From Natrinema halophilum (lineage in GTDB: Archaea > Halobacteriota > Halobacteria > Halobacteriales > Natrialbaceae), in contig NZ_CP058601.1 of the NCBI RefSeq assembly GCF_013402815.2, positions 4,030,001 through 4,094,000 of the forward strand: a stretch of DNA of 64,000 bases. The letters run 5' to 3'. Under the pieces are notes generated by a model. The model did not search any database. It was not told where the DNA came from and worked only from the letters and a program-made list of their open reading frames with translations. The translations under genes and the position numbers were made by a program. This document shows positions 19,398 through 22,555 of the stretch, piece after piece (the stretch's first letter is position 1; every line of letters starts with the position of its first letter).

Positions 19398-22298
19398 TCA
19401 CCGATCGAGGAAAAGGGAGACGCCGATCAACACGAATCCAACGACGGCCGCCCCGCCGCCGACTGCCACATCGCCCGTAAGGGCAGCGATGCAGCCGGCG
19501 ACGACGCCTGCACCGCCGCCCCCGCCGATAATCGCCGACGATAGCGATGGTGACGCCATCGCATCGGCTCTAATTACCTCGAGTTCGGTTCGGACTCCTT
19601 CGATCACTTCGCCTGGTGGATTCTGCTGTTCGAGTTCACCGAGGCGTCCGTCGATCGTTTCGACCTGCTGTTCGAGGTTCGTGTGCCCCTCCACGACCGC
19701 CGTTACTCGTTCGTCGAGTTCATCGACGGTAGCATCGAGCGTCCGTACCTCTTCGAGCGCCTGAACCGCCGACTCGTCGGGACCGCTGTCGGCGGCCCGG
19801 TCGAGTTCGTCGTACTCCGTGCGAAGCGATTCGAAGCGGTTGGCGATTTCTGAGACGTCGTCCTCGAGTCTCGCAACGTCGTTTTCGAGCGCCACAACGG
19901 CGTCGCTGCTGGGGGCGTCGTCCAGTTCGTCGACTTTCCGCTCGATCGCCTCGAGTTCCGCCGTGATCCCGTCGATGTCGTCGGTCACCACGTCGATCAT
20001 CTCGTCGGTTTCGGCGACCGATTCACGCAGCGCCTCCAGGTCGTCGTCCATGACGATCTCATCGTCGAGTTCGTCGAGGTCAGCTTCCAGTCCGGCGACT
20101 ACTTCGGAGCGTTCCGTCTCAAGATCGGTAATTGCATCGTCGATCCGTTGCTCGAATCTCTCTTCGAGGACGCGAAGATCCGATTCGATTGCTTCCAGGT
20201 TCGACTCGACGGTCCCGATGGTGTCGGCGAGTTCGTCGACCGTCTCCGTGCTGGCCGTCCGCGCGGCGACGTCGTCGAGTCGCTCTGTCGCACCAGCAAT
20301 TGCCTGTTCGATGTCTTCGACCGCCGTTTCGAGGTCGGACAGATTGTCTTCGACTGCATCGACTCGGTCGCGACTTACGGCCGCAGTTTCGAGCGCCTCG
20401 ATCGTGTCTCGAGCCGTTTCGAGACGCTGCTCGAGCGACTCGGCGCGAGCGCTCAGCGTCTTGTTGACGGCAGTTAGCTCTTCGTCGACGGCGTCGAGCG
20501 TCGCCTCGATGGCGTCCGCTCGCTCGTCGGACCGTTCGAACTCCTCCTCGAGATGCCCTGAAACGTCGTCGATACGGGTGGCTAGTTCTTCGAGTCGGCC
20601 CGCGAACCCCTCGACTCGGGTCTCGGTCCGATCGACGGTCGCTTCGAGTTCCTCGAGATCGTTCGTTAGCCGTGAGACGGTCTCCTCGACCTCCTCGAGT
20701 GCAGATTCGGCCGCGGCATCCGCTTCGAGTTGCTCGAGCGCCGCCGACAGTGCTGCGAGGTCGTCGTCGAGCGTTTCAGTTCGGGCATCGATCTCCTCGA
20801 GATCACCAGCCAGGTCGCCCAGACGGTCCTCGAGGATGGCTCGTTCGTCTGCGGCGTCTGTTTCGACGGCCTCGAGTGCAGTGTCGACCTCGTCGACGTC
20901 GTCTTCTAACTCCGCCAGTGCGTCCGAGAGGTTTGCGAGGTCGTCGTCGAGAATCTCGACGTCCTCGTTGCTCGCATGAGTTTCGCTCTCAGCCTCGAGG
21001 TCGGCCAGTTCGTCGGCGAAGGTTTCGAGTCTGTCGTCGAGACCCTCGACGTCGTCGGCCGCGGCCATCCGCTCTTCGACGTACTCGAGATCCGCAAAAA
21101 GATCCTCGAGGTCCTCGCGGACGGACTGTATCTCGCTGTCACGGGTCGCGAGTCGATCGAACAGTTGCTCGATCGCCGTGTCGGATTGAGCAGCTATTGT
21201 ATCGTCGATTGCAGAATCGTCGAACGTGAGTTCAGTACCCACGTCCTCGGTGGAACTCTCGGGACCGCTGGAACCGCCGTCTGCGTCGTCGCGTTGGTCC
21301 GCGCCGTCGGGCCGGGTGATCGTCTTGTCAGCCTCGACGTTGGCCCTGGCTGCAGCGAGAGCGCCTCTGGCGGCGCTTTCTTCGGGAGCGTCTGCAAGTC
21401 GGACACCCCGAATAGAAAACGGGAGGTTGGCCGAGTCGAACCGGCCGCCGAAGAGAAATTCGATCCCCTGAATCGCGCCTTCACCGGCGATCGCGAGCGG
21501 AACTGACAGTCCCTGTTGGATGTCGCTTTCGTCGGCTTCGTCCCGGACCGTTTCGATCAGGTCGGCTATCAGGTCATCGTACGCTTCTGCGATCCCGCTC
21601 TCGATCCCGTCCGCCGGCGCATCGGGATCGAGCGTGAAGTCTTCGAGTACACCGGCGACCTGTGTCGCCGCGTGGCCGGTTTCACCCGCCGTTCGTTCGA
21701 CGATCCACTCGCGGCCCTTCCCGATCGTGACGGCCATCGCCGGGACGCCGTAGTATGCGAGCGTGACGCTCGTGGTCTGCGCTTCGAGACAGACGCCGAG
21801 GCCCGTGTAGTTGTCGGCGCCGAACTGATCGTAGACGACAGCAAAGCCCTTGCTGATCGGCGTCGCGTCGAGTCCGCGATGTGCGACGACGGACTCGATC
21901 GCCTCGCGGTATGCGTCGGCCGACTCCGTCACGTCGACCAGCGAACCGGGCGTCGTATAACAGAGCCGTCCGCCGGTCGCCTCGCCCAGTAGCTCGTCGA
22001 CGAGCGTTTCCAGCGCGGCCGTCGTGGGCGCGTCCGCCGCCGTCTCGAGACGGCCGTTCGCAAACAGCAACTGAGGGTCCTCGCCGGCCGCATCGGCGAC
22101 TGCTTGAGCGGCATTCCCGACAGCATACGTCGTTCCGGTCGCCCGAACGATGGCGCCATCCCTGGAGAGCCCCGTTTCCTCGAGCGCATCGTCGTCGGCC
22201 GGCTGAACGATCGGCGGGGCCGACTGAATCGCTCGACCGTCGCCCGTATCGGTGGCGGCCCGGATCGACCCCGGTCCGATGTCGAGACCGTAGTTCAT
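19398..22298 (-). CDS. Actin-like head, coiled-coil stalk and membrane-tail protein
   Basis: A 966-residue protein. Residues 1-~330 resemble the actin/MreB/Hsp70 ATPase fold: YGLDIGPGSIRAA is a phosphate-1 motif (D6, G8), GLGVCLEAQTTSVTLAYYG looks like phosphate-2 with altered residues, and PLAIAGEGAIQGIEF is adenosine-loop-like. About 40 disordered residues follow. Residues ~380-905 are almost pure heptads (LEDLFADLEYVEERM, LEELEATVDRTETRVEG), an SMC-like coiled coil. Two hydrophobic segments end the protein (AGVVAGCIAALTG, AAVVGFVLIGVSLFLDR). ATG at 22298 was chosen; GTG 22319 is an alternative. No operon partner. A membrane-anchored cytoskeletal or tethering role is inference. Confidence 0.75.
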   Translation of the reverse strand: MNYGLDIGPGSIRAATDTGDGRAIQSAPPIVQPADDDALEETGLSRDGAIVRATGTTYAVGNAAQAVADAAGEDPQLLFANGRLETAADAPTTAALETLVDELLGEATGGRLCYTTPGSLVDVTESADAYREAIESVVAHRGLDATPISKGFAVVYDQFGADNYTGLGVCLEAQTTSVTLAYYGVPAMAVTIGKGREWIVERTAGETGHAATQVAGVLEDFTLDPDAPADGIESGIAEAYDDLIADLIETVRDEADESDIQQGLSVPLAIAGEGAIQGIEFLFGGRFDSANLPFSIRGVRLADAPEESAARGALAAARANVEADKTITRPDGADQRDDADGGSSGPESSTEDVGTELTFDDSAIDDTIAAQSDTAIEQLFDRLATRDSEIQSVREDLEDLFADLEYVEERMAAADDVEGLDDRLETFADELADLEAESETHASNEDVEILDDDLANLSDALAELEDDVDEVDTALEAVETDAADERAILEDRLGDLAGDLEEIDARTETLDDDLAALSAALEQLEADAAAESALEEVEETVSRLTNDLEELEATVDRTETRVEGFAGRLEELATRIDDVSGHLEEEFERSDERADAIEATLDAVDEELTAVNKTLSARAESLEQRLETARDTIEALETAAVSRDRVDAVEDNLSDLETAVEDIEQAIAGATERLDDVAARTASTETVDELADTIGTVESNLEAIESDLRVLEERFEQRIDDAITDLETERSEVVAGLEADLDELDDEIVMDDDLEALRESVAETDEMIDVVTDDIDGITAELEAIERKVDELDDAPSSDAVVALENDVARLEDDVSEIANRFESLRTEYDELDRAADSGPDESAVQALEEVRTLDATVDELDERVTAVVEGHTNLEQQVETIDGRLGELEQQNPPGEVIEGVRTELEVIRADAMASPSLSSAIIGGGGGAGVVAGCIAALTGDVAVGGGAAVVGFVLIGVSLFLDR

Positions 22299-22555
22299 GC
22301 ACACGGCAAGTCGAAGCACCCTATTGGAAGTTCCCCCCGAAGTACCAGATGTGAAAATCAGCTCCGTTCACACGGATCGAGATCCGCGCCCGCGATGAGA
22401 ATTATCTCATATCTGAATACTTGTGCTGGTGCAACACACGAGCTATCCGACGAAAATCGAAACCCGGAGATAATCGCACTTCAAAGGATATGGGCGCCAT
22501 ATGATGGCAAGCAAATGGGTAGTATATAGCACACGCAGAGAGGAATCCTCACGTT
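22299..22555. other. Intergenic region with small palindromes upstream of pckA
   Basis: An AT-rich region between divergent genes. It holds CGGATC-GA-GATCCG (about 22374-22387) and ATATGG-GCG-CCATAT (about 22489-22503). Either could be an operator for pckA or the actin-like gene, but neither is near enough to a start to be assigned. Confidence 0.35.

Follow-up and report, generated by a model that had tools for sequence, protein, structure and literature searches.

The gene at 19398..22298 (-) of the window, the 64,000-nucleotide stretch of haloarchaeal DNA that was analysed, encodes a 966-aa protein, taken from its frame, Pfam match and homologues to be a membrane-tethered volactin paralogue. 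The head of the protein belongs to the volactin family and has an actin fold; behind it come an acidic linker, a long stalk of coiled coil and, at the C-terminus, a pair of hydrophobic helices. Because head, stalk and hairpin are common to 50 distinct homologues, their combination is more than chance. No description of the tethered architecture was found in the literature searched, which took in few subscription papers or preprints; the volactin family of the head is already known. The view of the earlier note that no archaeal filament of this kind had been described holds for the whole architecture but not for the head, whose family was published in 2024 (PMC10869688). As to its role, it is quite possible, though far from assured, that the protein is a hydrolysis-dead, membrane-anchored volactin that holds or nucleates ordinary volactin filaments at the membrane.

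Gene and reading frame

The open frame spans 19398-22319 (-), and translation from the ATG at 22298 to the stop at 19398 gives 966 aa. This ATG was favoured over the GTG at 22319 because the homologues begin at the same Met, and the 966-residue chain proposed earlier corresponds to a real reading frame with a shared start. In the window genome (4.84 Mb) the gene stands by itself, flanked by genes of opposite direction and without linkage to the volactin gene volA, and no conserved operon partner was found next to it across the homologue loci. The neighbouring genes pckA, cutA and that for ribosomal protein L11 were rejected as partners: they represent shared gene order in family f1, to which the window genome belongs, and are absent near the corresponding genes of families f7 and f10.

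Volactin head with an actin fold

The head (residues 1-322; 21333..22298, -) matches Pfam PF25216 (Volactin) over residues 1-317 with an E value of 5.1e-125, at 418 bits against a curated cut-off of 35, and positions 1-321 of the 321 in the profile are covered. The AlphaFold2 (AF2) model of the head, built from a 61-sequence alignment, reached a pLDDT of 89.5 and a pTM of 0.90, and among solved structures it comes closest to MamK (Z 26.4 over 290 aligned residues, 3.2 A), BeeR (25.0) and MreB (~24). The PDB search with the head as a single sequence gave no convincing match; profile and fold searches were required.

An actin/MreB/Hsp70-like head had been suggested for this protein. The Pfam match, the AF2 model and the similarity to MamK support the actin fold, the structure prediction and fold search giving an actin-type fold rather than an unrelated one, but Hsp70 was rejected as the closest kin, the DnaK of the window genome being a separate gene (L132). 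An SMC-like protein was likewise rejected: models of SMC/Rad50 proteins match the coiled coil only, with scores of 82 vs a cut-off of 300 and 68 vs 567 bits, and the ABC ATPase head of the SMC/Rad50 type is absent from the tethered protein, whose head is the actin fold.

Mean identity within the set is 92% for the short volactins vs 51% for the long heads. The part of the long heads least similar to short volactin is subdomain IB (15% identity), and the invariant volactin residues are kept in both halves of the head.

Among known systems, volactin (VolA, PF25216) is the closest, its whole Pfam profile being matched by the tethered head at ~31-33% identity to the short volactins. Volactin is short and soluble (~340 aa) and has the catalytic Glu, whereas the tethered protein of 966 aa lacks this Glu and adds linker, stalk and hairpin. 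MamK, MreB and BeeR are the closest solved folds (Z 24-26), but their identity to the head is ~13-19% and they have no such stalk; MamK has both Glu143 and Asp161. FtsA resembles the tethered protein, by analogy of role only, in being an actin homologue through which cytoskeletal filaments are attached to the membrane; it ties the tubulin-like FtsZ through a short C-terminal helix, not a long stalk, and its sequence similarity to the tethered protein is low. RodZ links the membrane to the actin MreB through a membrane helix and an extended region, which is again a likeness of role only, since RodZ itself is no actin. Salactin of Halobacterium salinarum is another haloarchaeal actin, whose filaments have one end anchored at the cell pole, but salactin-like heads form a branch of the tree separate from the tethered head, and salactin was rejected as its kin.

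Active site and predicted loss of ATP hydrolysis

In the profile alignment with MamK, Glu152 of the short volactins pairs with Glu143, and Ser172 with the phosphate-2 Asp161. The catalytic-type Glu152 is present in 41/41 short volactins and in 0/50 long ones, which mostly have Lys, Arg, Thr, Ser or Gln at this position; the window protein has Lys150 (codon 21849..21851, -), and two long proteins of family f10 have an acidic residue shifted by one position from this site. The alignments also showed that the phosphate-2 loop GLGVCLEAQTTSV (residues 166-178; 21765..21803, -) is degenerate compared with GLGISFGAGMTNV of short volactin, the phosphate-2 Gly176 being retained in only 3 of the 45 f1 long heads. 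The adenine-side loop (residues 267-279; 21462..21500, -) is one Gly shorter than that of short volactin (PLAIAGEGAIQG vs PVVVTGGTSSPSG), and this Gly is missing from 45/45 f1 long heads. The phosphate-1 Asp is retained in 46/50 long proteins and Thr178 in nearly all.

Mutations of the Glu143 or Asp161 type are stated to abolish the ATPase activity and filament dynamics of actins (PMC5059902). Judged from the alignments, ATP hydrolysis by the tethered head is probably lost, because the catalytic Glu, an adenine-loop Gly and, in most long heads, a phosphate-2 Gly are lost. That hydrolysis may be lost had been suggested earlier from the motif GVCLEAQTTSV. The motif is present and the loss is probable, but as proof of lost hydrolysis the motif was rejected: it is weak evidence because the ordinary, dynamic volactin is also without the phosphate-2 Asp (the window protein has Cys170 at this site and 41/41 short volactins have Ser172), and the better evidence is the distribution of the Glu between short and long proteins.

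Linker and coiled-coil stalk

The head is followed by an acidic linker (residues 323-366; 21201..21332, -) of low conservation with a pLDDT of ~30, and then by the coiled-coil stalk (residues 367-913; 19560..21200, -), which comprises ~547 residues and would measure ~80 nm if extended. The stalk contains 33% Asp+Glu, almost no proline and little glycine, and its 3.5-residue hydrophobic period exceeds that of shuffles in 12 of 18 windows along it. In the full-length AF2 model residues 367-913 form a near-continuous helix; this model has modest confidence (mean pLDDT 69.8, pTM 0.42), so the stalk lengths and breaks are approximate. A conserved 'neck' helix, DTAIEQLFDRLATRDSEIQSVREDLEDL, lies at the start of the stalk (residues 373-400; 21099..21182, -), and its motif is common to f1 and was not seen in the f7 and f10 long proteins.

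The SMC-length heptad stalk described in the earlier note is borne out by the heptad period and the AF2 helices, and the coiled coil, looked for in the homologues, was not absent but present in 50/50 distinct long proteins. It has 160-848 residues (median ~550), corresponding to 24-126 nm if extended, and its length differs fivefold between species.

Predicted C-terminal membrane anchor

The first C-terminal helix (residues 921-941; 19476..19538, -) is hydrophobic and glycine-rich, with G926 and G928 nearly invariant and GGGGAGVVAG found in most members, and is followed by the second hydrophobic helix (residues 944-965; 19404..19469, -); both were delimited by hydropathy and the AF2 model. The hydrophobic pair closes all 50 long proteins, and none of the short ones has a hydrophobic tail. 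By Kyte-Doolittle hydropathy over the 50 long proteins, the second helix is strong (minimum 2.22, median 2.56) and the first borderline (median 1.58; ~1.5 in the window protein). Of the two membrane helices suggested earlier, the second is thus clearly transmembrane-like, but the first is only borderline. Head and stalk should be cytoplasmic, because the chain begins with the actin phosphate-1 strand and shows no apparent signal peptide.

Distribution and origin

The window genome also encodes an ordinary second volactin of 343 aa (C1:412068-413054). The long form was found in 86/121 f1 genomes, each accompanied by one or more additional volactin matches, and 2 of these 86 are fragments in incomplete genomes; of the remaining f1 genomes, 34/121 have the short form alone and 1/121 has no volactin. 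This co-occurrence of long and short forms means little within f1, since almost every genome of this family has ordinary volactin. Long forms were also found in 3 f7 and 2 f10 genomes, which belong to other haloarchaeal families, each beside a short one, and within the class the long tethered volactin was found only in f1, f7 and f10.

Outside the haloarchaea, volactin frames in a phylum-wide sample are ~326-371 aa and all short, and therefore the short form would most simply be ancestral and the tethered form derived. The tree, made by a quick method and with long branches, places the f1 long heads in one group with full support. The long forms of f1, f7 and f10 each form a tight group, and the tree fixes neither their mutual order nor a single origin.

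Further actin homologues were observed in the survey. Genome G106 has, besides two intact volactin copies at other places, a third one near a contig end that is split over two frames (L128:4391-5353, +). A viral contig (IMGVR_UViG_3300032053_000362; L133:4815-5831, +) encodes a 338-aa volactin (PF25216, E 2e-66) that retains the catalytic-type Glu (PINEGLALIY). Many genomes of f3 and f4, and some of f2 and f5, contain a salactin-like actin; the search of the window genome and of the tested genomes of f1, f7 and f10 yielded no true match. In the f4 genomes G009, G015, G006, G027, G011 and G072 the salactin-like match has one internal stop codon and is perhaps an inactivated copy.

Proposed role of the tethered volactin

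Volactin (VolA, HVO_2015), an actin homologue of Haloferax volcanii, forms dynamic filaments that are important for the disk shape of the cells, and these filaments reportedly contact the membrane only by their tips (PMC10869688). The gene volA is described as the only identified actin homologue in Haloferax volcanii (PMC7617734).

In the proposed mechanism, a duplicated, derived volactin paralogue would carry its head at the tip of a long coiled-coil stalk in the cytoplasm, and the C-terminal hydrophobic hairpin would fix this stalk in the cell membrane. The head would bind a subunit of ordinary volactin, and would most likely do so as an end-binding subunit; stalk and hairpin could thereby anchor, nucleate or cap volactin filaments tens of nanometres from the membrane. 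Computation backs the structural parts of this mechanism, and the binding is inferred. Such an anchor fits the reported tip-only membrane contact of volactin filaments, and the fast divergence of the long heads compared with short volactin fits partner binding rather than a self-polymerising filament. Against it, 34 f1 genomes contain volactin but no tethered form. The more specific proposal, that a dead actin subunit with a built-in tether caps, holds or nucleates the filaments of its active paralogue at ~25-125 nm from the membrane, is put forward more tentatively.

The tip contact of volactin in general cannot depend on the tethered protein, because Haloferax volcanii is described as having volA only and the long form was found only in f1, f7 and f10. 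The DUF7139 protein, a membrane protein of four helices, is a candidate partner or anchor of volactin and a strong competitor, the main one, for the role of anchor: in 40/41 loci its gene immediately precedes that of short volactin on the upstream side. At the locus of the ordinary volactin of the window genome, the DUF7139 gene (L002:2587-3504, -) has this upstream position and shares the strand of the volactin gene.

For the tethered protein itself, the chief rival is a cortical scaffold or adaptor with another partner, in which the head would be a pseudo-actin docking module (cf. its fold-mates FtsA and PilM) for a non-volactin protein and the coiled coils would form a membrane-bound scaffold. 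The lost catalytic residues, the fast evolution of the head with almost nothing of short volactin kept in subdomain IB, and the long, acidic coiled coil common to all members agree with this reading, which nevertheless appears rather unlikely: the head is still clearly volactin-like, the tethered form is always accompanied by ordinary volactin, and no linked partner gene was found. Alternatively, the heads might polymerise among themselves into a volactin-like filament that runs parallel to the membrane, the stalks serving as spacers. The actin fold is intact, and actin homologues such as Dr-FtsA are able to polymerise with little or no hydrolysis; but the poor conservation of the head (51% vs 92%), the loss of the catalytic Glu in all members and the bulky C-terminal stalk on each subunit make such a filament improbable. 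Least probable of all is an ATP/ADP-dependent switch, in which the nucleotide-binding head would serve as a slow sensor at the membrane and would have no filament partners, since the retained phosphate-1 Asp and Thr178 are set against altered phosphate-2 and adenine-side loops and a lost Glu152.

The reading of the tethered protein as an anchor of ordinary volactin filaments predicts that removal of the tethered gene would make these filaments lose or change their membrane contacts. If true, it would represent an actin-based anchor of actin that arose by duplication of the filament protein. The tethered volactin is a widespread candidate for attaching haloarchaeal actin filaments to the membrane.
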